From a virus: DNA of 37,597 nt. A model generated the notes under the pieces. That model was given only the letters and a program-made list of their open reading frames with translations. It was not told the DNA's origin and ran no database searches. Where the stretch lies: positions 1 through 37,597 of IMG/VR virus record IMGVR_UViG_3300029787_000141; one strand, 5' to 3'. The number at the start of each line of letters is the position of its first letter. Position 1 is the first letter of the stretch. The translations under genes were made by a program, and so were the position numbers. This document shows, piece after piece, positions 1 to 15,135 of the stretch.

Positions 1-14
1 AAGTCAAATCCCAT
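1..14 (-). CDS. 5' end of a gene running off the left edge (possibly terminase large subunit)
   Basis: An ATG on the minus strand at 14-12 opens a frame reading Met-Gly-Phe-Asp up to the edge. A strong ribosome binding site, AGGAG, lies about six bases upstream, which is why this is taken as a true start. Only four full codons are visible, so the product cannot be identified. It lies a few small genes downstream of the small terminase subunit in the reading direction. In podoviruses the large terminase subunit commonly follows there, so that is the leading guess, from position only. Confidence 0.55.
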
Positions 15-74
15 TTTTGCTCCTTTGTTTGTGGGTTATCATTATTTTTTTTATATAAAATTTAATGGGATATG
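15..74. other. short intergenic stretch with no recognised feature
   Basis: This AT-rich sequence separates the left-edge gene start from the small membrane peptide frame. It contains the AGGAG ribosome binding site of the left-edge gene. I see no convincing hairpin terminator and no promoter pair with good spacing. Confidence 0.4.
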
Positions 75-179
75 TCAAAACAATAATTTAATTAGTAATA
101 AAATTATCACCATACATATAGCGAACCCAATAGGGTTTAACACTAAATAAGCTACTATTTCTACCCATAATCCCATCAT
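75..179 (-). CDS. possible 34-residue membrane peptide
   Basis: A 34-codon frame starts with two successive ATGs at 179 and 176 and ends at TGA 77-75. The product is almost entirely hydrophobic: a segment around residues 4-15 and a strong one from about 18 to 33, so it would be a single- or double-pass inner-membrane peptide. It sits in the tandem minus-strand series between the 100-residue gene and the left-edge gene. No good ribosome binding site is visible, and a short AT-rich hydrophobic frame can arise by chance. Small membrane peptides are common in podoviruses (lysis or superinfection functions), but no specific role can be assigned. Confidence 0.35.
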   Translation of the reverse strand: MMGLWVEIVAYLVLNPIGFAICMVIILLLIKLLF

Positions 180-201
180 TTTGGGATAATATATAGTATT
201 G

Positions 202-504
202 TTAAATTTTTACAATCTTTTTTATTACTGAATTTGGTATTATTGTTGTATTACCTATTGTCTCAATATCCTTATTATTATCGGCTAATGAGAAATCCCC
301 AAATACTCTAGTAATACCTTTAGATTGAGAAAACAAATGACCTTTAGTAATACAAGTAGGTAATTTTTGTTTTTTTAATTCATCAAAACTACTCCAACTA
401 CTATTACTCAAAATGTCAAACCACTCTATTGATACCATAGGATATTTTTCAATTTCATTTTTTATTTTTTTTGGGATTAAAATTTTTTTTCTATTTTTTT
501 TCAT
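202..504 (-). CDS. small phage protein of unknown function
   Basis: A 100-residue protein with a lysine-rich N-terminus and a central Ser-Ile-Glu-Trp-Phe-Asp stretch. The Trp-Asp pattern, a Thr-Lys-Gly-His-Leu turn and a C-terminal Ile-Ile-Pro segment followed by a short helix resemble the many short phage proteins of the general form V-x-W-x-D ... P-x-x-C-x-S-x-G ... I-P-x-x-x-I. The function of that group is not known to me. The frame is open to a TTG at 510, but the ATG at 504 is preferred because GAGG lies at suitable distance upstream. It lies between the terminase region and the left-edge gene on the same strand. Confidence 0.7.
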   Translation of the reverse strand: MKKNRKKILIPKKIKNEIEKYPMVSIEWFDILSNSSWSSFDELKKQKLPTCITKGHLFSQSKGITRVFGDFSLADNNKDIETIGNTTIIPNSVIKKIVKI

Positions 505-586
505 TGGCAAAACCTCATAAAGTTACATATATACTTGATAGCAATATCGTTTAGATTTACATAGGGACCTGATAGTAATACTGTTT

Positions 587-691
587 TCATTTCTTCTTAC
601 CTGCTAATACTGTTACAATACCGATTGAAGTATTAATCAAATGTGAATTGTGAATTTCGTTAAATACTTTCATCCACTGATCACTTCTCAT
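587..691 (-). CDS. possible 34-residue protein overlapping the end of the small terminase gene
   Basis: The frame from ATG 691 to the stop at 587 gives 34 residues with a hydrophobic stretch near the C-terminus and a Lys-Lys-Lys end. The start overlaps the last 11 bases of the small terminase gene, an overlap style common in this genome. The frame is open upstream to 778, but that would overlap the terminase gene by 98 bases, so the internal ATG is preferred. No ribosome binding site is obvious, and it could be a chance frame. The roughly 80 bases to the left of it hold no other recognisable feature. Confidence 0.3.
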   Translation of the reverse strand: MRSDQWMKVFNEIHNSHLINTSIGIVTVLAGKKK

Positions 692-1193
692 TAATTTTTG
701 CTGGCGTAACGTCAATGATGTTCTTGCCTTCCCCGATTTTTTTTTCGAGTTCTGCAAGCCTACTTTCCAATTGCTCACGATTCATACCCTCCAATCCTAC
801 ATGCTTTACTTCTCTTTTATCTACAAACATTCCTGCCATTTGACCAGATCTAAACTCAGCATTTATTGCATGGCCAAACTGGCCTTTTTCTTCTGCTCTC
901 TTACTTAAGTGATCAAATCTATTATACTTACGTAGTTTATCTTTTTCTTTTTTATCTAATTCTATTTGATATTGTTTTTCGAAGTATCTTACAACATGTG
1001 GATTTAAATCCGGATTCATTAATCTGGATGCAATATCTCTAGGGCCATATTCCTGTTTTGATTCATAACCAGCTTGTTTGGCTGCTTCTACCTTTGTAAT
1101 CTTCCCCCAATTTTTTACTAAGATATCCACAAAGCTTCTTTGCTTTACAGTTAACTCACTAGACATTTTCAATTGATTCTTTTTCTTTGGCAT
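681..1193 (-). CDS. terS: terminase small subunit (Terminase_2-like)
   Basis: About 170 residues. The N-terminal third reads as a terminase small-subunit DNA-binding domain: Leu-Thr-Val-Lys-Gln-Arg-Ser-Phe-Val-Asp, then a helix-turn-helix around Glu-Ala-Ala-Lys-Gln-Ala-Gly-Tyr, then Ala-Ser-Arg-Leu-Met-Asn-Pro before a long charged helix. Small subunits recognise packaging sites on concatemeric DNA and present them to the large ATPase/nuclease subunit. The C-terminal part is a charged, probably coiled-coil segment. Three in-frame ATGs (1211, 1193, 1166) lack clear ribosome binding sites; 1193 is chosen as a compromise and the true start is uncertain. It is the first gene downstream of the gene-free control region, so its promoter and possibly the packaging site should lie there. 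Confidence 0.85.
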   Translation of the reverse strand: MPKKKNQLKMSSELTVKQRSFVDILVKNWGKITKVEAAKQAGYESKQEYGPRDIASRLMNPDLNPHVVRYFEKQYQIELDKKEKDKLRKYNRFDHLSKRAEEKGQFGHAINAEFRSGQMAGMFVDKREVKHVGLEGMNREQLESRLAELEKKIGEGKNIIDVTPAKINEK

Positions 1194-1286
1194 ATAGGTC
1201 AACAATACCATAATTTAATTTTTTTCTAATACCTCAACCCTAGAAATTTTTTTTATTTTTTATTTTTTATTAATATTTTGGAACGC

Positions 1287-1379
1287 TTTTCCCAGTTTGT
1301 TTAGGAATTTTCCTAGTGTTTTCCTAGTCTGTTTTGCTCTATTATTATTGATTTATATAGTATTTTCCTAGTTTCCTAG
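1287..1379. repeat. cluster of five TTTTCCTAG-type repeats, candidate packaging or replication site
   Basis: Five same-orientation copies: TTTTCCCAG at 1287, TTTTCCTAG at 1308, 1319 and 1363, and TTTCCTAG at 1372. The steps are 21, 11, 44 and 9 bases, mostly near multiples of the DNA helical turn, so most copies would lie on one face of the helix. The second copy is also half of a perfect inverted repeat, TAGGAA-TT-TTCCTA (1302-1315). The cluster lies just upstream of the small terminase gene, so a terminase binding (pac) site, an iteron-type origin, or a regulator array are all possible. The surrounding DNA is extremely AT-rich. Confidence 0.5.
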
Positions 1380-1440
1380 CTATTTGCGTACAAATAAAAT
1401 TTTTTATTTTTTTTATTTCTAGTAGTTAGGTATGTAGGAA

Positions 1441-1489
1441 TCGTGGCCCGTGACTAGTGTTGCAAATATGCAACAGCCAGGATACACGA
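1441..1489. other. hairpin with perfect 7-bp stem nested in a longer inverted repeat
   Basis: TGTTGCA at 1458-1464 pairs with TGCAACA at 1469-1475 across a four-base loop. Outside it, TCGTG at 1441-1445 can pair with CACGA at 1485-1489. The island is noticeably richer in G and C than its surroundings. It could be an RNA structure, a replication or packaging landmark, or a protein binding site. It is too short to be a tRNA and no T-loop is seen. Confidence 0.4.
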
Positions 1490-1492
1490 CCC

Positions 1493-1520
1493 TTGACATC
1501 ACTTGAAATATCACTATGTT
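1493..1520 (+). promoter_or_regulatory. sigma70-like promoter on the plus strand
   Basis: A perfect -35 hexamer TTGACA (1493-1498) is followed after 16 bases by TATGTT (1515-1520), four of six matches to the -10 consensus. Transcription would begin near 1527. No open reading frame of useful length follows, but a terminator-like hairpin does (1657-1688), so the promoter points at a small RNA. Confidence 0.45.
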
Positions 1521-1526
1521 ACGTAT

Positions 1527-1690
1527 ATCCCTATAGGATACCCTGAGTTTTACTGCTCCTAATAGTTTGGCTCAGGGTTTACAAACACATTCTCATACAG
1601 TAATAATTAAGTGTTATTGTTTTTCATAATAATAACTCCATTTTTAGTTATCATTTCCCTGGGGTCTACCTTTCGGCTCCAGGGTTTTAA
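1527..1690 (+). ncRNA. candidate small RNA of about 160 nt
   Basis: Between the plus-strand promoter at 1493-1520 and the terminator at 1657-1688 there is no frame longer than a few codons. The segment does hold two well-formed hairpins. The first pairs ACCCTGAG (1540-1547) with CTCAGGGT (1571-1578) around a 23-base loop. The second is the terminator stem itself. A short structured transcript opposite to the direction of the terminase and tail genes is therefore predicted. Its role is unknown. It could be a trans-acting RNA, or part of packaging or replication control. The evidence is structural only, and the end points are estimates. Confidence 0.4.
1657..1688 (+). terminator. rho-independent terminator (plus direction)
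   Basis: CCCTGGGGTC (1657-1666) pairs with GGCTCCAGGG (1675-1684) in a ten-pair stem with two G-U pairs and an eight-base loop, followed by TTTT and then AATTT. It is directional: on the minus strand the hairpin is not followed by a T run. There is no plus-strand protein gene upstream to terminate, which supports a separate non-coding transcript. Confidence 0.6.
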
Positions 1691-1782
1691 TTTACAAAAT
1701 TATAGATTTAAGTTATAACGTTAGTATGTGTTCTTTAAAAAGATTACATAAATTCATAAAGCTCTCTTTTCGTCCACCGTGA
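1691..1782. other. remainder of the gene-free region, no further feature recognised
   Basis: This is the right-hand end of the roughly 590-base gene-free region (1194-1782). TATAAT occurs on the minus strand at 1704-1699, but no -35 with acceptable spacing precedes it, so I do not call a promoter. No reading frame over about 15 codons was found here on either strand. Confidence 0.4.
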
Positions 1783-2220
1783 CTAAACTTTTACCGATAA
1801 AAAAATATTACTAATTAATTCATTTTTCGTACTTCCAATATTTCCTCTAGCTCTTAACAATGCAATTCTTAACACGGCCCTTTGTTCTTTATTTTTTTCT
1901 TTACGATGTCGTTGATATAATTCGTTATACTCCTTCCATTTAATATGTTTTAAATGAAAAGATATTTCAAAATTTTTTAAAGCTTTTTTATATCTAATTT
2001 TTATTTCTTCCGGGTCCCAACCAGCCCACCAACAAATCTGATCAAACTCTTCCGAATCGCTAATCCATTCATGTGCATCTATTTTAGTGAGTGCTGATTT
2101 TCTATCCGTATTTTTTATACGAACATCTTCCATGGCATTTAAAATAACATGTCTCCATAATTTCTGCTCATTATTCTGGTGGTTTTCTTTAATAAGATCA
2201 GATGCTATGTTAGTGCCCAT
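1783..2220 (-). CDS. conserved phage protein of unknown function
   Basis: About 145 residues from the ATG at 2220. The first part has the pattern Leu-Trp-Arg-His-Val-Ile ... Ser-Ala-Leu-Thr-Lys ... His-Glu-Trp-Ile-Ser ... Glu-Phe-Asp-Gln-Ile-Cys-Trp-Trp-Ala-Gly-Trp-Asp-Pro-Glu. This resembles a common small phage family in which a helical domain ends in an 'F-x-x-V-C-x-x-A-G-x-x-P-x-x-I-R' segment. The family looks DNA-binding-like, but its function is not established to me. The C-terminal half is very basic and helical. The frame is open to 2316, but the later ATG overlaps the upstream gene by only 11 bases and is preferred. It is the last gene of the small-gene cluster before the control region. 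Confidence 0.65.
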   Translation of the reverse strand: MGTNIASDLIKENHQNNEQKLWRHVILNAMEDVRIKNTDRKSALTKIDAHEWISDSEEFDQICWWAGWDPEEIKIRYKKALKNFEISFHLKHIKWKEYNELYQRHRKEKNKEQRAVLRIALLRARGNIGSTKNELISNIFLSVKV

Positions 2221-2407
2221 AAGTTTTAATAAGTCTGGTGAGTAGATCACTATAATATCCCTTTGAATTAGCCCAATTAAAAGAGGATGCGATCTCCCAA
2301 TGATGATGGATATCATCCATAATTAGAGTGATATCTGCGCCATTCAGTTTTTCATCTTTGATAAACTGTTGCAATTGATTAAAGTCACTTATTAAACTGT
2401 GTTCCAT
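2210..2407 (-). CDS. small protein of unknown function
   Basis: A 65-residue protein if started at ATG 2407, seven bases after the upstream stop; an ATG at 2434 would add nine residues and overlap the upstream gene by 20 bases. The sequence is mixed helical, with a His-His-His-Trp stretch and several aromatic residues near the C-terminus. No domain is recognised. Its place in an unbroken series of overlapping minus-strand genes supports it being real. Confidence 0.55.
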   Translation of the reverse strand: MEHSLISDFNQLQQFIKDEKLNGADITLIMDDIHHHWEIASSFNWANSKGYYSDLLTRLIKTYGH

Positions 2408-2414
2408 ACCAGTA

Positions 2415-2684
2415 TTATAACAAATTGTTAACATCACCGGTACCTTGTATTAGTTTAAGTCTTACAACATTATCTTTTCCATTCTTATCATTTTTATGTA
2501 CACTCCTAATATCTTCAGCGTCTCTTAAAAATTCTGGACCAAAATGAGGATACTGGTAGGTAACACCATTTAATAATGCATATACTACTGAGGTAAGTTT
2601 TTTATATTCTGATTTATTTAATTTTCCAGCGCATATGACCATGCACTTTGTTAGTTCAGTTATACCATCCGTTTTCTTTGCCAT
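2415..2684 (-). CDS. small protein of unknown function
   Basis: An 89-residue protein. The frame is open to a TTG at 2702, but ATG 2684 is the natural start. The N-terminal half is a lysine-rich helix followed by Val-Val-Tyr-Ala-Leu-Leu-Asn-Gly; the C-terminal half is charged. It overlaps the zinc-finger gene upstream by 29 bases. No family is recognised. Confidence 0.6.
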   Translation of the reverse strand: MAKKTDGITELTKCMVICAGKLNKSEYKKLTSVVYALLNGVTYQYPHFGPEFLRDAEDIRSVHKNDKNGKDNVVRLKLIQGTGDVNNLL

Positions 2685-2883
2685 TAATAAAGTCCCATAC
2701 AATTTTTAAAGCTGCCTGATATGTAGGCTCTTCCATTTTATCTGAACCGTGATACGTGGAACCTTTTCCGTTACAAAAGATACATGCTGCTTTTTTCAGA
2801 GATGCAGGGGCCAAGATTTGGCCTGATCCGGTGCATTCTTTACAGTCAATGACCTTAACACCTTCTATATTAATTTTTTTCAT
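2656..2883 (-). CDS. DnaJ-type zinc-finger protein
   Basis: A 75-residue protein with two CxxCxGxG motifs: Cys-Lys-Glu-Cys-Thr-Gly-Ser-Gly at about residues 14-21 and Cys-Ile-Phe-Cys-Asn-Gly-Lys-Gly at about 34-41. This is the signature of the cysteine-rich zinc-binding domain of DnaJ; two motifs would bind one zinc ion. The rest is a short helical tail, and there is no J domain. Small free-standing proteins of this kind occur in many phages, but their role is not firmly established. Some marine podoviruses (HMO-2011 type) carry a DnaJ-like domain inside their DNA polymerase, whereas the polymerase here lacks it. A role in replication complexes is only a possibility. Confidence 0.75.
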   Translation of the reverse strand: MKKINIEGVKVIDCKECTGSGQILAPASLKKAACIFCNGKGSTYHGSDKMEEPTYQAALKIVWDFINGKENGWYN

Positions 2884-2929
2884 AATTGTAAAGTATATAA
2901 TGTACCTATGGTCTAGGTCTATACTACAT

Positions 2930-3076
2930 TTAGTGTTTATTACCGTATATCTTATGCTTGGCTAAAATCTCAAGAGTCTGTATTCTTTTACCAGAAGCCT
3001 TAAGTAAAAACTTTAATGTTTTCTTTTGAGCTTCTAACTGAGTAACCATAGCTTTTAATTCTTCAATTGTCGGCAT
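2930..3076 (-). CDS. 48-residue coiled-coil peptide
   Basis: The frame runs from ATG 3076 to TAA 2932-2930. It is preceded by a strong ribosome binding site (GGGAG, four bases before the ATG), so it is likely to be translated. It begins Met-Pro-Thr-Ile-Glu-Glu-Leu-Lys and continues as a charged amphipathic helix with heptad-like leucines over about residues 5-40. It overlaps the upstream gene by 14 bases. No family is recognised. A short dimeric helical adaptor or inhibitor is possible but not shown. Confidence 0.6.
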   Translation of the reverse strand: MPTIEELKAMVTQLEAQKKTLKFLLKASGKRIQTLEILAKHKIYGNKH

Positions 3077-3290
3077 ATCTCTCCCTTAATTTCAAAAAAT
3101 ATTTTTTACATAGTTTCAACATTCGATCAAATACTGATTCGGCATTTTTAATTTTTATTTTATTACGAATAAATCCATTTACCTTTAATGTAAGAGTGCT
3201 GGTAACAGCGTCATACTCAACAGTAAAATCTTCTTTACCCTTATTTTTAAAATCGACCTTAGTTATTTCTGATGTCGAATGCGTGGCCAT
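3063..3290 (-). CDS. small protein of unknown function
   Basis: A 75-residue protein starting at ATG 3290, three bases after the upstream gene's stop codon. The first 45 residues alternate polar and hydrophobic residues (Phe-Thr-Val-Glu-Tyr, Ser-Thr-Leu-Thr-Leu-Lys-Val), suggesting beta strands. The last 30 form a basic helix. No family is recognised. The opposite-strand frame over the same bases is a shadow. Confidence 0.6.
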   Translation of the reverse strand: MATHSTSEITKVDFKNKGKEDFTVEYDAVTSTLTLKVNGFIRNKIKIKNAESVFDRMLKLCKKYFLKLRERYADN

Positions 3291-3293
3291 ATG

Positions 3294-3491
3294 TTAACCG
3301 GTACCGTTTAATAGTTTCTTTTTATAAACTTCCGGGGTAACTTTTAATTTCTTAGCTTCATAAGTAATATGATTATCAATCAACTTTGATATCATTGCAC
3401 CGGGAGCTCTAAATTTATTTTTACAAATACCTTTTAATAACTGGTAATCTGTAATTCTAACTGCGATTGACTTCCACTTATTTGTGTCCAT
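3294..3491 (-). CDS. small basic protein, possible ribbon-helix-helix regulator
   Basis: A 65-residue protein beginning Met-Asp-Thr-Asn-Lys-Trp-Lys-Ser-Ile-Ala-Val-Arg-Ile. The layout is a short N-terminal strand with alternating residues, a helix (Asp-Tyr-Gln-Leu-Leu-Lys), a turn (Arg-Ala-Pro-Gly) and a second helix (Met-Ile-Ser-Lys-Leu-Ile). That suits a ribbon-helix-helix (CopG/Arc-like) DNA-binding fold, which acts as a dimer on operators. Similar short proteins occur in other marine phages. GAGG and AGG lie immediately upstream of the ATG. Its start overlaps the upstream gene by 14 bases. The fold assignment is tentative. Confidence 0.6.
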   Translation of the reverse strand: MDTNKWKSIAVRITDYQLLKGICKNKFRAPGAMISKLIDNHITYEAKKLKVTPEVYKKKLLNGTG

Positions 3492-3705
3492 CCTTAACCT
3501 CCATATCAGGTGTTAACACCAGGGTTTCATCAGACTCAATTAATCCCAATTGTTTTTTTAGTTCTTTATTCTCAGCTCTAAGTTTTACTACTTCATTACC
3601 TAGCTGGTCTATGCCCTTATTTATTTTTACAAATAAAGGGTCTACTGCTTCATTTATTTGCGATCTAGTTTTACCGACAAATAACTGTACTATACGATTT
3701 ACCAT
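3478..3705 (-). CDS. small coiled-coil protein
   Basis: A 75-residue protein. Residues about 25-55 form a heptad-rich helix (Ile-Asn-Lys-Gly-Ile-Asp-Gln-Leu, Val-Val-Lys-Leu-Arg-Ala-Glu-Asn-Lys-Glu-Leu-Lys) ending in an acidic tail. The first 15 residues are hydrophobic and basic. It probably self-associates. No family is recognised. It starts one base after the upstream stop and overlaps the next gene by 14 bases. Confidence 0.6.
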   Translation of the reverse strand: MVNRIVQLFVGKTRSQINEAVDPLFVKINKGIDQLGNEVVKLRAENKELKKQLGLIESDETLVLTPDMEVKDGHK

Positions 3706-3706
3706 T

Positions 3707-3955
3707 TTAGTTTTCCTGTTGTTTGTTTTTTATTTCATCATGAACCAAAGCTTCAGCAAACTTATTAGTTATTGGATTATGAGCTTCACCTGACTCATCT
3801 CTAATAGTGATATCAAGTGAATCTACATACATAGAGAAATCCATAGAGTCCTCTACAGGACAACCCTGAATATCATGTGTCGGAATTGTCGCTAATTGTT
3901 CGTCAAGTTTTTCTATGGTATCTTTTAATAATATAGATTTGCTTTTTAGTTTCAT
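3707..3955 (-). CDS. small acidic protein of unknown function, first gene of the left-end minus cluster
   Basis: An 82-residue protein with a lysine-rich first 20 residues and an acidic remainder (Val-Glu-Asp-Ser-Met-Asp-Phe). No domain is recognised. It begins only 15 bases from the divergent plus-strand frame. A good promoter, TTGACT-17-TATATA, ends seven bases before its ATG, so the message could be leaderless or nearly so; no ribosome binding site is visible. It is the first of a run of small minus-strand genes that continues to 1783. Confidence 0.6.
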   Translation of the reverse strand: MKLKSKSILLKDTIEKLDEQLATIPTHDIQGCPVEDSMDFSMYVDSLDITIRDESGEAHNPITNKFAEALVHDEIKNKQQEN

Positions 3956-3962
3956 GCAGTCT

Positions 3963-3991
3963 TATATATATGGGAGATAATCACAAGTCAA
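3963..3991 (-). promoter_or_regulatory. sigma70-like promoter for the left-end small-gene cluster
   Basis: On the minus strand TTGACT (3991-3986) is followed by a 17-base spacer and TATATA (3968-3963). Both hexamers are close to consensus and the spacing is ideal. Transcription would start within a base or two of the ATG at 3955. The promoter overlaps the first codons of the divergent plus-strand gene. Confidence 0.45.
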
Positions 3992-4215
3992 TGAAATTTT
4001 TATTAACAATAGTAATGTGTAGTAGTGTTCAAGGCACCTGTTTACCGCCTCATTCTTTTGAGGAATTATACCCAACAAGCTATGAGTGTATGATTGCGGG
4101 CTATCAAAAATCACTTGATAAAACCATTGAAATAGGTAAGGGTGATGTAAATCAGCATGGGATATATATGAAGTTTGATTGCCGAGGAGTAATCCCAGAG
4201 GAAGAAGAAACTTAG
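3991..4215 (+). CDS. small exported or membrane-anchored cysteine protein
   Basis: A 74-residue protein if started at ATG 3991; an in-frame ATG at 3970 adds seven polar residues. The later start is preferred because it gives a clean hydrophobic N-terminus, Met-Lys-Phe-Leu-Leu-Thr-Ile-Val-Met, followed by Cys-Ser-Ser-Val-Gln-Gly-Thr-Cys. The rest has a Tyr-Glu-Cys-Met-Ile-Ala-Gly-Tyr segment and another cysteine near the end. Similar small proteins with this hydrophobic start are common in pelagiphage-like genomes, with no known function. It opens a four-gene plus-strand unit. The next gene's N-terminus has the same spacing of cysteine and Gly-Thr residues, so the two may be diverged duplicates. 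Confidence 0.65.
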   Translation: MKFLLTIVMCSSVQGTCLPPHSFEELYPTSYECMIAGYQKSLDKTIEIGKGDVNQHGIYMKFDCRGVIPEEEET

Positions 4216-4216
4216 A

Positions 4217-4474
4217 ATGATTCTAAAGTATATATTAATTGGCACTGTTTGTTGGTCCTTAAATGGTACTGAAAAATGTGCTCAACAAGTCAATTTAAAC
4301 GTCTCAGATCTAGATAAATGCAAGCATATATCAAATGTGAGTGGTAGGTCATTTAAAGAGAGAATCGCAAAAATTGGGGGCTCTATGACCTTCCTAGAGG
4401 GTCATTGTATGGCCATTGATAAAGACGGATGGAATATTGACGAATCCCTTAAAATATCTTATACTATCCTATGA
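4217..4474 (+). CDS. small exported or membrane-anchored cysteine protein, likely relative of the preceding gene
   Basis: An 85-residue protein with a hydrophobic start (Met-Ile-Leu-Lys-Tyr-Ile-Leu-Ile-Gly-Thr-Val-Cys) and then Trp-Ser-Leu-Asn-Gly-Thr-Glu-Lys-Cys. The pattern V-x-C-x4-G-T-x(0-2)-C matches the preceding protein. Four cysteines in all suggest disulfides if it reaches the periplasm. It starts one base after the preceding stop and overlaps the next gene by four bases (ATGA). No function is assigned. Confidence 0.65.
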   Translation: MILKYILIGTVCWSLNGTEKCAQQVNLNVSDLDKCKHISNVSGRSFKERIAKIGGSMTFLEGHCMAIDKDGWNIDESLKISYTIL

Positions 4475-4734
4475 AGACTTATCGTATCCAAGCCCGTCAC
4501 GGAGAGTCTTATATAGACCATACGTTGAAGGCTGACAACGACCAGGATGCATTAAATAAGTTTTCAAAACTAGTAAGCGAAGGCCAAGTTAAAATCAAGA
4601 ATGAAGGTTTTTTTCTAGGCAATAGAGTTTACATAACTTTTGAGGAGGTAGACAGCAATGTCACTACAGGAGTTGATATCGAAGAAGTTACAGCTGGAAT
4701 CGAAGTGGGCCAGCCAAGCGTTATCACAGGGTAG
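4471..4734 (+). CDS. small protein of unknown function
   Basis: An 87-residue protein. The start shares ATGA with the previous stop. It begins Met-Lys-Thr-Tyr-Arg-Ile-Gln-Ala-Arg-His-Gly and includes Lys-Ala-Asp-Asn-Asp-Gln-Asp-Ala-Leu-Asn-Lys-Phe. This alternation of strand and helix is seen in small phage proteins that modify or bind nucleic acids, but no family is secure. Its last 77 bases overlap the next gene in a different frame. Confidence 0.6.
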   Translation: MKTYRIQARHGESYIDHTLKADNDQDALNKFSKLVSEGQVKIKNEGFFLGNRVYITFEEVDSNVTTGVDIEEVTAGIEVGQPSVITG

Positions 4735-4840
4735 AGTTACCCCTGATATGAAATGGATCGATATCGAATTAAAAGGCCTTAAAGTTAAGATTAACGACCA
4801 AAGTGTTGTTGATGCTATGAAAACTTTAAAAGGCCAGTAG
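4658..4840 (+). CDS. 60-residue protein of unknown function
   Basis: The frame starts at ATG 4658 with GAGGAGG nine bases upstream, a strong ribosome binding site, which supports translation despite the 77-base overlap with the preceding gene. The product starts with an amphipathic helix (Ser-Leu-Gln-Glu-Leu-Ile-Ser-Lys-Lys-Leu), then a Lys-Gly-Leu-Lys-Val strand. It is the last gene of the plus-strand unit and its stop codon abuts the convergent endonuclease gene. Confidence 0.6.
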   Translation: MSLQELISKKLQLESKWASQALSQGRVTPDMKWIDIELKGLKVKINDQSVVDAMKTLKGQ

Positions 4841-4858
4841 TTATTTAAAAAAACTACT
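4836..4858. terminator. weak hairpin between convergent genes
   Basis: AGTAGTT (4836-4842) pairs with AACTACT (4852-4858) around a nine-base A-rich loop, followed in the plus direction by CTTTTG. It lies at the meeting point of the plus-strand unit and the minus-strand replication genes, where a terminator would be expected. The stem is AT-rich and the T run short, so efficiency is doubtful. Confidence 0.35.
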
Positions 4859-5206
4859 CTTTTGTCGTAGGGATTCTGCCGCCTTTTTAAACTCATAATG
4901 ATTTATAATCTTCATAAGTTTATCTCTTTTAGCTGTTGAATATTTAATTAATTTTTTTGCAACTCTTAAAGCTTGTTGATGGCTACATCTCCATCTCCAT
5001 TGTGGTTTTCTACCTAAACCTTTATTTTGTTTATGATGTATTGTTCCCTCTCTTATAACATTATGAAACATTTGCACTGTCTCTAGATCTGTCATTGCTA
5101 TTTCTAATGCAACATTCCATTTCTTATGGTTTTTATTTTTTACTCTATATTGCGCATAGTTAACATTACCTTCACCATCAAATAAACCTGCACACCATCC
5201 AATCAT
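4841..5206 (-). CDS. LAGLIDADG-family homing endonuclease, single-motif
   Basis: About 121 residues from ATG 5206; a GTG at 5224 is an alternative. The N-terminal Ala-Gly-Leu-Phe-Asp-Gly-Glu-Gly-Asn-Val is a clear LAGLIDADG motif, whose acidic residue binds the catalytic metal. One motif means it would act as a homodimer on a near-palindromic site. Further on, Gln-Trp-Arg-Trp-Arg-Cys and a lysine-rich helix fit DNA binding. It lies directly downstream of the DNA polymerase gene (stop 5211), a classic location for free-standing homing endonucleases that target the neighbouring polymerase gene. No intron or intein disrupts the polymerase, so it is probably intron-less. Target and activity are unknown. 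Confidence 0.85.
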   Translation of the reverse strand: MIGWCAGLFDGEGNVNYAQYRVKNKNHKKWNVALEIAMTDLETVQMFHNVIREGTIHHKQNKGLGRKPQWRWRCSHQQALRVAKKLIKYSTAKRDKLMKIINHYEFKKAAESLRQKSSFFK

Positions 5207-5210
5207 TATT

Positions 5211-7061
5211 TCACTTTGCTCCACCCCAACTCCTTCCTATTTTAAAATCTGTCACTGAGGGCACTTTAAATTCTATAGCACTCTCCATTATATTTTTTAT
5301 TTCTTCTGCATGTTTTTTATCTTTTATATTAAAACAAAGCTCATCATGTATTTGTAAAATAGGTAGATGGCCTGCTTGTGCACAATTTAACATAGCTTGT
5401 TTTGTTTGATCTGCTGAAGAGCCTTGGATTAATCTGTTTAAGGCTTTGTATGTAAAAGCTCTTTTAATATTATCTCTACCATATTTTGCTACAGCATTAT
5501 CATATGTTTCAGCTTGATGAAGGCCAAAGTCTCTAGTCTCCCATTTATCAAATCTACATTTTCTACCACGTTTAGTTCTGATTACACCTTTCTCACTAGC
5601 AGTGGTCATACATCTATCTGATAACATTTTTACAAATGGTACTTTTTTATTATACTTACTTATTAATTCTTGAGCTTCTTCTTTAGACAACCCTAATTGT
5701 AAAGATAATTTATTTTTACCCATGCCATACATTAAACCGAGTCCAATTGTTTTGGCCTGTGTTCTTTCAATACCTACTAGATCAGCAACTGTTTGATGAA
5801 AATCTGCCTGACTGTTTTGATAGGCTGTAACTAATTCATTTGATCCTTCATAACCATCACCAATGCTAGCTGCATAATGAACCGTCATGCGTGGTTCTTG
5901 TTGCGAATAGTCAAAACTACCCCATTGTTGGCCCTCTTCTGGTATAAATAAACTTCTTATCTTAGGACCAAAGTCTTTGTTTCTAGCTGGGACTTGCTGT
6001 AAATTTGGGTTACTCATAGACAGCCGACCGGATACAGTTCCTCCAAGATCTGATCTTAATTGATTTATTTCTGCATGTATCCTTCCATTGACCTGGTATT
6101 TCATGATAGAAGATAAGAACGTATTATGAAATTTATTTACTTCACGAGCCTGTACAATCAAATTAGCAATCTTATGATTACAATTAACCAACCAGTTTTG
6201 AGTAAATGATGGCTCCTTTGTTTTTTCAGTACGTGGGTAATCTATTTTCATCTTATCAAAAGCTCTGGCAACTTGGCGTGCTGCCCAAATGTCTATGTCT
6301 AGTCCTGTTAATTTTTGTATTGCCAACAACAATTCTTTTTCTTGGTGCTGCATTTGTTTACGTAATTGTTCAGCTAACTCCACTTCTACTCTTACCCCTC
6401 GTTGACGCATTTTTATAAGTATAGGAATTAAATCTTTTTCAAGCTCCCAAACAGTTGTTAAACTTTGAGATTGTAATTCTTGTTTAAATCTTTGCCACAA
6501 CAACAATGTTAATCTTGCATCTTGTTCTGCATAATATCCAACATGTTCTGCGGGTAACATCCACATATCTTTTTTTGGATCTACACCATGAGCTGCCGCT
6601 GCTTCTTTTAAATCTGTCTCTGCTTTTATTTCACCTAAATAATCTAATGACAAACTGTTTAAAGAATATTGAAATCTATTTTCATCTATGAGTGCTGCTG
6701 CAATCATAGTATCTATTATTTCACCATTTACTTTTATACCGGAAGCCTCAAGCCATCCGACATCGTATTGAGCATTATGAAATATTTTTGGACAAGGTAA
6801 AGCACATATTTTTTTCATGTAAGCTTTGACTTGTTCTGGAATCATATTACCACCACCTAAATGTCCGAACGGAAAATATCCTTGCCATCCTTCTACAGCT
6901 ACAGCAAAACCAACTATCTCACCCTTGTTAGTTGCCCAACCAGCACCATAACCGTTAGAGATTCCATCATCTCTTGTTTCTAAATCAATTGCTATTTCTT
7001 TTGCATTAGATAAATCTTTGTACTCTCCAGGTGTATTCCACATAGATTTTTTAAATGTCAT
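5211..7061 (-). CDS. polA: DNA polymerase I-type (family A) replicative polymerase with 3'-5' exonuclease
   Basis: A 616-residue protein from ATG 7061. The frame is open to 7118, but that would overrun the small gene ending at 7076. The exonuclease domain has Exo I Asp-Leu-Glu-Thr (D26, E28), Exo II Phe-His-Asn-Ala-Gln-Tyr-Asp (about 94-100) and Exo III Tyr-Ala-Glu-Gln-Asp (177-181). The polymerase domain has motif A Asp-Tyr-Ser-Gln (D384), motif B R433-xxx-K437-xxx-L441-xxx-Y445-Gly and motif C His-Asp-Glu (572-574). No 5'-3' exonuclease or DnaJ-like domain is present. Residue 441 matches Phe762 of E. coli Pol I and is leucine here. This is the phage replicative polymerase, expressed with the small upstream genes and the homing endonuclease. 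Confidence 0.95.
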   Translation of the reverse strand: MTFKKSMWNTPGEYKDLSNAKEIAIDLETRDDGISNGYGAGWATNKGEIVGFAVAVEGWQGYFPFGHLGGGNMIPEQVKAYMKKICALPCPKIFHNAQYDVGWLEASGIKVNGEIIDTMIAAALIDENRFQYSLNSLSLDYLGEIKAETDLKEAAAAHGVDPKKDMWMLPAEHVGYYAEQDARLTLLLWQRFKQELQSQSLTTVWELEKDLIPILIKMRQRGVRVEVELAEQLRKQMQHQEKELLLAIQKLTGLDIDIWAARQVARAFDKMKIDYPRTEKTKEPSFTQNWLVNCNHKIANLIVQAREVNKFHNTFLSSIMKYQVNGRIHAEINQLRSDLGGTVSGRLSMSNPNLQQVPARNKDFGPKIRSLFIPEEGQQWGSFDYSQQEPRMTVHYAASIGDGYEGSNELVTAYQNSQADFHQTVADLVGIERTQAKTIGLGLMYGMGKNKLSLQLGLSKEEAQELISKYNKKVPFVKMLSDRCMTTASEKGVIRTKRGRKCRFDKWETRDFGLHQAETYDNAVAKYGRDNIKRAFTYKALNRLIQGSSADQTKQAMLNCAQAGHLPILQIHDELCFNIKDKKHAEEIKNIMESAIEFKVPSVTDFKIGRSWGGAK

Positions 7062-9872: not shown

Positions 9873-11370
9873 CCATCTCCGAAGTTTTATTTTTTGTCTT
9901 TTGTTTTATCTTACCATGATCCACAAAAGAAGGCATCTCTACCTTCCACACATTTTTAACACCCTCATGATATTCTAACCTTTCACATCCTAGTAAACTC
10001 AGAGCTTCACTAGCACTTTTAAATGTTTTATCATTACCTAAAAATTTTTCAAAAGTTATTCTTCTAAAATAACAAGTGTTAGTCTTTGAATCTAATACCA
10101 CATAATTATCTTTTAACTTTTCATAGTCATCTTCTTCTATGTGAGCTTCAAAAAACTTTTTCAAGAAAGTATATTTTTCTTCACCAAGTGTATCTTCAAA
10201 TTTCATTTTATCATTTTCAATTGCTTGAGTTACTATTTCTCTTAACATTAATTCAAATGGTGGTGGACCAGATTTAGGCCTTGGAAGTGTCATCCAATAA
10301 ATTCCATATCTTAATAATTTTGTTCTCCAAGATTTTTCATCTTTCATATCTTCTGGTGTCACAATAATATTTTGTTCCTGATATTTAAAAGAATATTCAA
10401 TTGACTTAGTGCTTTTAATAAAACTAATATCAGTAAAGTCTGAAACAATAGGAGGAGGTTGAGATCCTATACCTAAAGCTCTAAATCTACATTTATCTTT
10501 ATCACATAAAGGTGTGTTACATTTAAGTGCATAATCTTTTTTACTAACTGAGTTTGCTACAGTTGCAATGACTTCTCTTTCAGGTAAAGGCGATGTAAAA
10601 ATTTGTTTGTTACGTTCTAATAAAATAGTTGTGATTTCTTTTTTACTTAAATTACCATCTGCCTTTTTCATTTCAAGAACACCCATGTTGAAAAGTAAAT
10701 CATTTCTATGATTACCAGTCCATTTTTCTTGAACCATTTTTTGGCAGCATGGAGGATATTGTTTCCAATTGCTCTCAGGCTCATATTGTTTTATATTCTT
10801 GTTAAGAGATTGTAATGAAATTTTTTTTGATATTGCTAATTGCAGGAATGCTCCTATCAACATTGGTGTATTATGTTCATTATATGCAAACTCTGTCGTG
10901 GAGTCTTTATTAAAGTATGGCATGTTCAAGCATTTGTTCATTGGAAAAACTTCTATTGCTTGAAAAAAATTATTATTTATTTCATCTAATTCTTTTTTAA
11001 CATCTTTGACTGGATAAAATTTATCAAGAAATAAAAATAAATGTAATCCACCTGATTTAGATCTGGCTGGTACAAGTGGTAAATTGTAATCTCTAATGAT
11101 GTCTACTATTTTCTTTTGATTGTAATCTTTATAATTATAAGGGTCTATATCAATGCAACCCCATTTGCATTGATCATTTTCTGTTTCTGGTTTTATACCT
11201 ATTCGAGTTGATCCTTCCAAATGCTCCTTCCAAATTTGTTTAGTAACAGGAGAGTGGACCGTGAGAGTTTGTGATTCTCTCTTGCCCCGTTCATCTACCT
11301 CCCCGGTGAGAGAGGTAGTAATGAACAGTTTAGAATTTCCCTCAAATAAATTTAAGAGATCAAGTTCCAT
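9838..11370 (-). CDS. archaeo-eukaryotic-type (AEP) DNA primase
   Basis: A 510-residue protein. The N-terminal domain carries an AEP catalytic signature: Gly-Cys-Ile-Asp-Ile-Asp (D74, D76) and Ser-Lys-Ser-Gly-Gly-Leu-His-Leu-Phe (105-112, H110), where the aspartates bind metal and the Ser/His motif binds nucleotide. Further on, Pro-Pro-Cys-Cys (about 206-209) and Cys284, Cys289 and Cys294 form a cysteine set like the metal or Fe-S binding C-terminal region of phage AEP primases. The last 200 residues are unassigned. AEP primases make the initiating primers and some also polymerise DNA. It overlaps the helicase gene by 35 bases and abuts the ssDNA-binding candidate. Confidence 0.85.
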   Translation of the reverse strand: MELDLLNLFEGNSKLFITTSLTGEVDERGKRESQTLTVHSPVTKQIWKEHLEGSTRIGIKPETENDQCKWGCIDIDPYNYKDYNQKKIVDIIRDYNLPLVPARSKSGGLHLFLFLDKFYPVKDVKKELDEINNNFFQAIEVFPMNKCLNMPYFNKDSTTEFAYNEHNTPMLIGAFLQLAISKKISLQSLNKNIKQYEPESNWKQYPPCCQKMVQEKWTGNHRNDLLFNMGVLEMKKADGNLSKKEITTILLERNKQIFTSPLPEREVIATVANSVSKKDYALKCNTPLCDKDKCRFRALGIGSQPPPIVSDFTDISFIKSTKSIEYSFKYQEQNIIVTPEDMKDEKSWRTKLLRYGIYWMTLPRPKSGPPPFELMLREIVTQAIENDKMKFEDTLGEEKYTFLKKFFEAHIEEDDYEKLKDNYVVLDSKTNTCYFRRITFEKFLGNDKTFKSASEALSLLGCERLEYHEGVKNVWKVEMPSFVDHGKIKQKTKNKTSEMDDEYHTGKFRT

Positions 11371-12795: not shown

Positions 12796-14208
12796 ATGAA
12801 AATGTATAACTACAAAACGGAGCCCTTTAAACATCAAAGGTTTGCTCTTACTCAAGGAGCAAAAGAAAAAAATTTTGCTTACTTTATGGAAATGGGTACA
12901 GGTAAAACTAAAGTAGCTATTGATAATGCTTGTTATTTATATCAACAATGTTTAATTAATTATTGTATAGTAATAGCACCTAATTCAGTTTATCAAAATT
13001 GGCAAAAAGAAATTAGTGTTCATTCTCCTGAGAACCACAACATATGGACATGGAAAGTAGATCCAGAAAAAAAACTAGATTTGAATGATTCTAAGTTGCT
13101 TTTTATTTTAATGAATGTTGAAGCTCTATCTCATAAATCTGGAGTAAAATTTTTAGAAAAGATATTACAACTTATAGGATTAAGAAGTATGATGGTTGTA
13201 GATGAAAGTACAACTATAAAAAATCGTACAGCTAGAAGAACAAAATCAATACTTAAATTAGCTCAATATATTAAATATAAAAGAATATTAACAGGTTCAC
13301 CCGTTACTAAATCTCCATTGGATTTATTTACTCAATGCGCTTTTCTAGATTGGAAGTTGTTAGGTTATGAAAGTTTTTTTACATATAGATCTAGATATGC
13401 AGTTATGCACACTATGGAGATGAATGGCAGACAAGTTATGTTTCCTAAATACTATACTAATTTAGATGAATTAGAACATAAGCTTAAAGGTTTTTCCTAT
13501 AGATGTAGAAAAAAAGATTGCCTAGATTTACCTGAAAAATTATATGCTCAGAGATATATTGATATGACTGATGAGCAAAGAAAAATTTACAATGATTTAA
13601 AAAAAAGAGCTATGGCAGTAGTTAGAGATGAAACTATTTCCTATGCAAATAAACTTACTGAAGTATTAAGATTACATCAAGTGGTTAATGGTTTTGTTAA
13701 AACAGATGAAGGTAATATTAAAGAATTCAAATCTAATCCTAAATTAAAAGAGTTAATGGGGATATTGGAGGAAACCGAAGACAAGTGTATCATATGGGCT
13801 AATTATGTTTTTAATATAAACCAAATTAAAAAAGCCATAGGAGAAGTGTATGGGAGAGATTCGGTGGTTTCGATTTACGGAGAAGATTCTGTTCAGTTAC
13901 GTAAAGATGCTGTTGAAAATTTTCAGCATAATGACAGATGTCGTTTCCTCGTTGGCAATCCTACCGTTGGTGGTTATGGTCTTACCCTTACTGCTGCTAG
14001 GTATGTTATATACTTTAGTAATAGTTACAATCTTGAAGTCCGCCAGCAAAGCGAAGATCGTGCTCATAGAATTGGTCAAGGTGCTAAAGTCACATATATA
14101 GATTTAATTGCAAATAAAAGTATTGATGAAATGATCTTAGGATCTCTCGAAGGTAAAATAGAAATATCGGCTAAGACTCTGGGTGAAGAGGTTCAGAAGT
14201 GGCTTTAA
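12796..14208 (+). CDS. SNF2-family superfamily 2 helicase
   Basis: A 470-residue protein. Motif I is Met-Gly-Thr-Gly-Lys-Thr (33-38), preceded by a Q-motif-like Lys-His-Gln-Arg-Phe. Motif II is Asp-Glu-Ser-Thr (136-139) and motif III is Leu-Thr-Gly-Ser-Pro. The C-terminal domain has Gly-Asn-Pro-Thr-Val-Gly-Gly-Tyr-Gly-Leu-Thr-Leu and motif VI Arg-Ala-His-Arg-Ile-Gly-Gln (about 422-428). These are the marks of SNF2-type DNA translocases. Phage members are thought to help replication, recombination or strand separation. It is the only large plus-strand gene, flanked by minus-strand genes, and it overlaps the nuclease gene tail-to-tail by 38 bases. Two ATGs (12796, 12802) are possible starts. 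Confidence 0.92.
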   Translation: MKMYNYKTEPFKHQRFALTQGAKEKNFAYFMEMGTGKTKVAIDNACYLYQQCLINYCIVIAPNSVYQNWQKEISVHSPENHNIWTWKVDPEKKLDLNDSKLLFILMNVEALSHKSGVKFLEKILQLIGLRSMMVVDESTTIKNRTARRTKSILKLAQYIKYKRILTGSPVTKSPLDLFTQCAFLDWKLLGYESFFTYRSRYAVMHTMEMNGRQVMFPKYYTNLDELEHKLKGFSYRCRKKDCLDLPEKLYAQRYIDMTDEQRKIYNDLKKRAMAVVRDETISYANKLTEVLRLHQVVNGFVKTDEGNIKEFKSNPKLKELMGILEETEDKCIIWANYVFNINQIKKAIGEVYGRDSVVSIYGEDSVQLRKDAVENFQHNDRCRFLVGNPTVGGYGLTLTAARYVIYFSNSYNLEVRQQSEDRAHRIGQGAKVTYIDLIANKSIDEMILGSLEGKIEISAKTLGEEVQKWL

Positions 14209-14911
14209 GTTTTTCATAACGCTCAACTCTTTCAAACCATTTATTTTCATACTCATCTAATTTTTGTGCATCCATTTTAAAACCTTGATAGATACCATCC
14301 TTTGTACAAATACAAATTAAACCCTGATCAATAGGTCCATATTGTTCTTGATGAGCTAAAGAGTAAGCCGCTATTTGATAATAATAATCTTCAATCCATT
14401 CTTCTTTTTTTAATTTATTGGATTGTTTAAAATCTATTATAGTAGGTTTTTCATCATATAAACCAACTAAGTCTGTTGATCCTGCCCATCTATTTTTATA
14501 TGCTAAATTAACTTCATTACCCCAGACTGTTTTAAGTAGATCTAAGTTATTAATTATTTCATGAGCCATCATTCTAGCTTGTTCACCCATCTCTGATAAA
14601 TTTAAATAACCTTTACCATTTATATATTGTTCTAATACATAATGCATCTCAGTCCCTCTTGTAGCTGCTTTTTGAGTAACTGCTTGAGCTTCTTGATAGC
14701 CAACTCTTTCTCTCCATCGATCTAAAGATTTTTTCTTTTCTTCTGATTGTGTAGCTGATAATATTGTAGTGACTGATGGTACTTTAACTTCACCTACATT
14801 ATAGGTTCGTGGCCCGTCATTGTCGTTTCTTGTATATGAAGAATATTTATATTTTTCTTCTCTTGTTAATTCTGTAAGTATAAATTTATTTTTTTCTTGT
14901 ATAAGGCGCAC
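14171..14911 (-). CDS. PD-(D/E)XK nuclease, Cas4/RecB-type
   Basis: A 246-residue protein with the RecB-type nuclease core: Arg-Gly-Thr-Glu-Met-His (85-90, His90), Glu133, Gly-Ser-Thr-Asp (144-147, Asp147), Ile-Ile-Asp-Phe-Lys (D160, K162) and the Gln-xxx-Tyr motif (Q179, Y183). These residues bind the metal and cut DNA. Such phage proteins usually act as exonucleases in recombination or host DNA degradation. The start appears to be GTG at 14911: no in-frame ATG lies before the conserved core, and no ribosome binding site is obvious. It follows the holin-like gene by eight bases and converges with the SNF2 helicase. Confidence 0.88.
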   Translation of the reverse strand: MRLIQEKNKFILTELTREEKYKYSSYTRNDNDGPRTYNVGEVKVPSVTTILSATQSEEKKKSLDRWRERVGYQEAQAVTQKAATRGTEMHYVLEQYINGKGYLNLSEMGEQARMMAHEIINNLDLLKTVWGNEVNLAYKNRWAGSTDLVGLYDEKPTIIDFKQSNKLKKEEWIEDYYYQIAAYSLAHQEQYGPIDQGLICICTKDGIYQGFKMDAQKLDEYENKWFERVERYEKLKATSEPLHPES

Positions 14912-14919
14912 AAAGTCTT

Positions 14920-15135
14920 TTAAATCACTTTTAGAACAAGAGCAACTACTATTCCAAGTAAAGTAGTTATTATAAACGCAGAACTAGAAATCATAATTTT
15001 TTCTAATCTGTGTACATCATCATGAAGATCTTTAATTTTTTTATTTGTTTCTCTTTGCATGATAAGACATAACTTTTCATGGTCATCTATTCTTTGATGA
15101 GCTAAAGAGTCTTTATGAGTTGACTTTCTTGGCAC
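14920..15135 (-). CDS. holin-like protein with coiled coil and C-terminal membrane helix
   Basis: A 71-residue protein. Residues about 15-48 are a charged coiled coil (Gln-Arg-Ile-Asp-Asp-His-Glu-Lys, Lys-Ile-Lys-Asp-Leu-His-Asp-Asp). Residues about 49-69 are a hydrophobic helix (Ile-Ile-Thr-Thr-Leu-Leu-Gly-Ile-Val-Val-Ala-Leu-Val-Leu), ending Lys-Val-Ile. This layout matches haemolysin XhlA-type proteins, which work with holins in lysis. The start is GTG 15135, supported by GGGAGG eight bases upstream and inside the end of the preceding gene. No endolysin was recognised beside it or elsewhere in the window. A structural membrane role cannot be excluded. Confidence 0.6.
   Translation of the reverse strand: MPRKSTHKDSLAHQRIDDHEKLCLIMQRETNKKIKDLHDDVHRLEKIMISSSAFIITTLLGIVVALVLKVI

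Follow-up and report, generated by a model that had tools for sequence, protein, structure and literature searches.

A conserved plus-strand structured RNA predicted at the early/terminase junction of HTVC023P-type pelagiphages

Between the terminase small subunit gene and the gp19-like gene of HTVC023P-type pelagiphages, whose hosts are the commonest bacteria of the ocean, there would be a plus-strand gene for a small non-coding RNA, situated at the early/terminase junction and acting in trans as an antisense RNA, a reading to which, taken as a whole, we would give a probability of about 0.5. A covarying RNA at a fixed locus, whose base-pairing site can be predicted, offers a concrete candidate for regulation of the early-to-late step that lends itself to testing; if the reading is true, a single RNA would command the translation of a set of post-terminase genes.

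The window analysed is a virus record of 37.6 kb (37,597 nucleotides), in which no end repeats were found, and which, judged from its sequence, is a fragment of an HTVC023P-type pelagiphage; its 842-aa protein has 36% identity with that of Pelagibacter phage HTVC023P. The gap of interest (1212–1782) is bounded on both sides by minus-strand genes, as the preliminary description had stated, and its parts are the following:

681–1211, minus strand: terminase small subunit gene, left flank (PHROG 51, E 1.7e-6; 67% identity with the HTVC023P terminase small subunit)
1287–1385, no strand assigned: element of about 99 bp carrying TTTTCCTAG repeats, kept in relatives and placed upstream of the terminase small subunit gene
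1493–1520, plus strand: P1, promoter-like and lineage-specific (TTGACA 1493–1498, 16-base spacer, TATGTT 1515–1520)
1540–1578, plus strand: hairpin hp0 (ACCCTGAG 1540–1547 with CTCAGGGT 1571–1578), from the fold and from two pair changes in L082
1578–1606, plus strand: P2, conserved promoter-like site (TTTACA 1578–1583, TAATAA 1601–1606), from the invariance of TTKAC in relatives
1608–1692, plus strand: core RNA, matched by the covariance models R1 and R2, both trained without the window's group
1613–1636, plus strand: AU-rich hairpin hp1 (GTTATTGTT/AATAATAAC, loop TTTCAT), from the fold and the covariance models
1637–1656, plus strand: single-stranded linker TCCATTTTTAGTTATCATTT, counterpart of the relatives' CCTCTTTGTTAGTT
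1657–1693, plus strand: hairpin hp2 and T run, like an intrinsic terminator (ten-pair stem 1657–1666/1675–1684)
1783–2316, minus strand: HTVC023P gp19-like gene, right flank, from synteny

That description had read in this place a stand-alone structured RNA of about 160 nt, with a promoter at 1493–1520, a hairpin, a ten-pair terminator-like stem and a T run, in a stretch with no usable reading frame. The letters of the promoter are all there, as are the hairpin, the stem and the T run at the plus-strand positions given for them, and there is no open reading frame of at least 60 aa on either strand of 1493–1690. Synteny, covariation, strand-specific wobbles, the TTKAC motif and the lack of a shared minus-strand frame lend good support to the idea of a structured plus-strand RNA standing alone, whereas its extent and parts have to be redrawn: the conserved unit is of about 80 nt (approximately 1610–1690), starts from the promoter at 1578–1606 and has hp1 as its first hairpin, while the promoter at 1493–1520 and the hairpin at 1540–1578 are found only in the window's small group, outside the conserved core. 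Both hp1 and P2, conserved in relatives, had been overlooked.

The relatives were gathered through a protein search with the terminase small subunit, which gave 76 loci in viral contigs, and another with the gp19-like protein, which added one contig. About 65 loci, with 45 distinct gaps, share the arrangement of terminase small subunit, gap and gp19, and four groups can be aligned across the gap: A (the window, L002, L006 and L082, which are three distinct sequences), B (HTVC023P, L013–L020 and L025), C (L032–L037) and D (some twenty others), a fifth, E, being more remote. Among these loci a plus-strand gene in the gap, gp20, is carried by HTVC023P, L014, L017 and L019. In HTVC023P, an isolate, the predicted RNA occupies 10,809–10,904 of the record, on the minus strand. 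One plus-strand layout is common to groups A to D, in 37 distinct cores: a -35-like TTKAC, about 17 bases, TANNAN in most, hp1 directly after the -10 with a T-rich loop (usually containing TTTCAT), the linker, and hp2, often terminator-like with a T run; several phages of group D have CTAAAAAA rather than T after hp2. The T, T, A and C of TTKAC are invariant in the 37 aligned cores. A promoter-like site with at most two mismatches from consensus is present in 21 of the 37 and in 2.7% of shuffles, the former figure being a minimum, since some -35 boxes fell outside the stretch that was scanned. The fit of the -10 is poor (TANTAM), and the two cores of group C fit a promoter poorly (TTAACG). The linker is near-invariant across the cores, reading GCCTCTTTGTTAGTT in most (group D), GCCTTTTTTGTTAGTT in B, CTTCTCTTGTTAGTT in C and CTCCATTTTTAGTT in A.

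When the pattern formed by the linker and the start of hp2 was scanned in viral contigs, 25 of the 30 stretches found lay at the terminase/gp19 junction, and the remaining five, with another linker or context, look like chance. Across 85k bacterial and archaeal genomes the linker pattern gave 28 scattered matches, none of them titled Pelagibacter, the host genus; one of these, in a Falkowbacteria MAG (L131), reaches E 0.007 with model R2, and the others score weakly. HTVC027P, a relative with published RNA-seq, has a different terminase neighbourhood, without a model match there.

The structure was tested for covariation in 23 group D-type sequences with a MAFFT alignment that was not fitted to it. 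In this alignment 95.8% of the pair cells are standard, against 24–40% paired when the structure is slid from its true position, and 11 of the 20 pairs have changes on both sides; for four of the five covariation measures the observed level is reached by none of 500 shuffles, and for the fifth by one. Adding groups B and C through the model gives double changes in 19 of the 20 pairs, in an alignment that leans towards the structure. The wobbles also have a direction, with 46 G-U cells on the plus strand against six that would be G-U on the minus strand; these cells are not independent events, and the bias is present at many columns. Compensatory structure, and structure on the claimed strand, both expected of an independent phage non-coding RNA gene, were found. 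It is very probable, as far as comparison of sequences can tell, that a conserved plus-strand structured RNA exists in this family; its own promoter and terminator are predicted from sequence signals.

Whether the window carries a member of this family was approached with two covariance models, R1 made from the D-type sequences alone and R2 from these together with B and C. Within the window's gap the best match of R1 is at 1608–1692 (19.5 bits, E 0.0014 in 501 bases), with all pairs kept, although in a larger search of 500 kb the window copy was not reported by this model; for R2 the best match of the whole window is at 1610–1692 (27.1 bits, E 0.019 in 176 kb), and L006 and L082 are also matched. 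A custom covariance model, proposed as a check in the preliminary description, has therefore recovered the window copy without having been trained on its group. The scores are modest, and the group has three distinct sequences; synteny and the shared layout from TTTACA to the linker add weight to the membership. We consider it likely that the window has a working member of the RNA family, in which hp1 would form the 5′ end of the core.

In the window itself, the fold of 1526–1690 reaches -47.2 kcal/mol against -28.7 ± 3.6 in shuffles (z -5.2; none of 200 shuffles is as strong), and it is this same fold that reveals the middle AU-rich hairpin at 1613–1636. The linear signals are another matter: in positions 1–6000 there are 24 sigma-70-like sites against 30.2 ± 6.2 in shuffles, and three terminator-like sites against 2.7, so that P1 and the terminator signals, each taken alone, carry little weight. 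The stem of hp2 has seven G-C among its ten pairs and is followed by TTTTAATTT, with a short T run, and P2 has an alternative -10, AATAAT at 1602–1607, with an 18-base spacer. Within group A the counterparts of P1 have identical spacing (TTGACT/TATATA in L006, TTGACT/TATCTT in L082), TTGAC and a TAT-like -10 being kept in all three sequences; P1 is nevertheless less certain, because its -35 falls within a conserved block, ACGACCCTTGAC. As to hp0, whose 3′ arm abuts the -35 of P2 and which is either an RNA hairpin or an operator, two pairs differ on both sides between the window and L082 (T-A to C-G and A-T to G-C), and the loop is rewritten. The refuting outcome named earlier, stems lost among close relatives, did not appear: both L006 and L082 have retained the first hairpin as well as the terminator stem, with one G-T to A-T change in hp2 and the compensatory changes in hp0 of L082. 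HTVC023P and L025 have comparable pieces that are unrelated to P1 and hp0; P1 and hp0 together would yield an optional longer form.

The sequence of events that we propose would begin with sigma-70-type initiation near 1612 and end with termination near 1690, the window's group having in addition a longer form from P1 that would include hp0. The RNA would then work in trans as an antisense RNA, covering the Shine-Dalgarno and start codon of genes of the gp23, gp26 and gp27 types (HTVC023P), whose translation would be delayed or limited by this masking. The reason for thinking of a pairing partner is the unpaired linker, near-invariant beside stems that change freely. Moreover, if the linker is taken together with the 3′ arm of hp1 and the CAU of the loop, the sequence nearly equals the reverse complement of an initiation module, AACTAACAAAGGAGCAAAAATG, that recurs in the phage genes immediately after the terminase small subunit; with such near-complementarity the RNA would mask the start sites of those genes. 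In HTVC023P, G001 and G005 the best non-self duplex of the linker genome-wide is a translation start: in HTVC023P that of gp27, with a perfect 15-base match, AACTAACAAAAAAGG, and in G001 and G005 those of open reading frames of 117 and 82 aa. Composition-shuffled linkers reach the energy of the best start site in 2, 10 and 4 of 300 cases, respectively. On the coding strand of HTVC023P, outside the RNA locus, AACTAACAAA has five copies, four of them just before starts, and AACTAACAAAGGAG or a close variant precedes the gp23-type genes in most relatives and is absent before gp22 and gp25.

Other observations do not go in the same direction. In the window's group the linker has drifted (CTCCATTTTTAGTTATC), and the target search there gave no start that beats shuffled linkers (194 of 300 reach the best energy); the window stops where its gp23-type gene begins, and part of the target cluster lies beyond its end. 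Nor do the linkers of groups A and C, compared by eye, track the start region of gp23, so that the pairing with start sites is not backed by covariation; and, as the linker's complement makes a well-formed translation start by itself, its likeness to other starts could have another cause. The antisense mechanism on translation starts is for these reasons put forward tentatively, and somewhat more doubtful still is the wider proposal of a lytic marine phage lineage with a trans-acting RNA, the 5′ half of which would be antisense to its own initiation module (spacer, Shine-Dalgarno and AUG) and would command the post-terminase gene set.

The well-formed start in the linker complement leads to an explanation in which the minus strand is the one that matters, the conserved part being a leader peptide or upstream ORF start in the transcript that runs from gp19 to terminase, and the hairpins a part of that transcript. 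In 35 of the 37 cores the minus strand does have, at start-like spacing, an ATG, mostly with AAA after it, and a AACTAACAAAGAGG-like motif. The frames after this ATG, however, go from 1 to 54 aa (six codons in the window) with none in common, ATG is followed at once by a stop in L010 and L027, and it is absent in L021 and L023; a minus-strand small protein was accordingly rejected, for there is no conserved frame across the cores. With neither frame nor length conserved, the wobbles at 46 to 6 in favour of the plus strand, and both the promoter-like site and the T runs on that strand, the leader peptide is improbable. Slightly less probable again is a relic, in which promoter, leader and tandem terminators would remain from a plus-strand gene since lost, either gp20 or the small membrane-protein genes of groups C and E. 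It would agree with the position of gp20 just upstream in the four loci that have it, and with the small plus-strand gene found just after hp2 in groups C and E, but the end of gp20 falls within P2, and phages that have no plus-strand gene there still possess P2, hp1, linker and hp2, with covariation; the persistence of promoter and core without gp20 disfavours in particular the gp20 version. Least probable of all we judge an element acting as DNA, such as a replication origin, a packaging site or an operator, with the inverted repeats working at that level: the region has a conserved repeat element and the terminase small subunit gene as neighbours, and palindromes overlap the promoter in L008 and L045, yet strand-biased wobbles would be unexpected in DNA palindromes, and the linker, invariant and left single-stranded, and the T runs, present on one strand, count against it as well.

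The alternative to be taken most seriously, while still unlikely, accepts the RNA and changes its action to a local one: a short OOP-type counter-transcript at the early/late junction, working in cis as antisense or insulator and pairing with read-through from the gp19 side, which may invite cleavage by RNase III or block transcription into the terminase genes. Its place opposite the main operon at a module boundary, and its length, resemble those of OOP-like RNAs, and any minus-strand read-through would be fully complementary to it. Antisense action in cis, however, needs no conservation of sequence, and here a linker of 15 bases is nearly invariant while the stems change.

Among the systems already described, the OOP RNA of lambda is antisense to cII, and the sar RNA of phage P22 is encoded opposite its own target. 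The first is a short, terminated RNA that runs against the main operon where two modules meet, and the second acts in antisense to prevent a phage gene from being translated, at the initiation step (PMC12197685). With OOP the pelagiphage RNA, compared by description only, shares being a short RNA opposite the main operon at a phage module boundary, and differs in that the conserved linker points to targets elsewhere; with sar it would share an antisense effect on translation initiation, while differing in that several distant starts have the complementary module in common. Trans-acting base-pairing sRNAs of bacteria, and the phage RNAs VpdS and PreS, which bind Hfq and have been shown to act (PMC12197685), offer the same arrangement of hairpin, single-stranded seed and terminator, with a seed complementary to Shine-Dalgarno regions; in contrast to these Hfq-bound and demonstrated cases, the targets predicted here are the phage's own genes. 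The packaging RNA of phi29 (Rfam Phage_pRNA) is likewise a structured phage RNA of similar length, and the present one adjoins terminase genes; the difference is that Rfam has no match to it in the window or the relatives. Indeed, at gathering score Rfam gave no match in the window nor in 11 relatives, and at permissive thresholds only weak ones, far below the cut-offs and none credible. In the literature searched, no non-coding RNA was found to have been described from these phages. In kind it would be a phage small RNA, and as a family it appears undescribed.

Several minor features of the same region may be added. The element at 1287–1385 has 91% identity in HTVC023P, against 36–67% for the compared proteins, with weaker matches in many others, and is a candidate packaging site or late promoter. 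At 1440–1498 of the window, and in the equivalent place in relatives, directly upstream of the RNA promoter, there are degenerate 7-base repeats of the CCGTGAC / CCGAGAG type, direct and inverted, a possible operator. The gp20 of HTVC023P (L003, 6454–6852), a lone plus-strand gene in only four loci of the set, has no Pfam or PHROG match at useful scores. In loci of groups B to D (L029, L003 and others) a further hairpin lies in the gap beside the gp19 stop, for example at about 7030–7075 in L003. Its loop, CGATTGCTCC, hardly varies, the stems are exchanged, being GAGGGTGG/CTGCCCTC in B and D and GCAACTTAG/CTGGGTTGC in C, the wobbles are read on the plus strand, and in B and D TTCATAT..ATATGAWTCCTTTC stands before it; this hairpin is missing from the window's group, and the RNA may be longer in the phages that have it. 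A small membrane-protein gene (PHROG 4276) follows hp2 on the plus strand in group C (L037/L032), and in several group D phages (L029/L021) the same gene, compared by eye, is on the minus strand and runs into hp2, an apparent inversion. Finally, in the HTVC023P record (12,900–16,600) a separate TTGAC... promoter-like site seems to belong to each of the post-terminase genes gp23, gp26, gp27 and gp28, and ATGGGATA is often near these sites.
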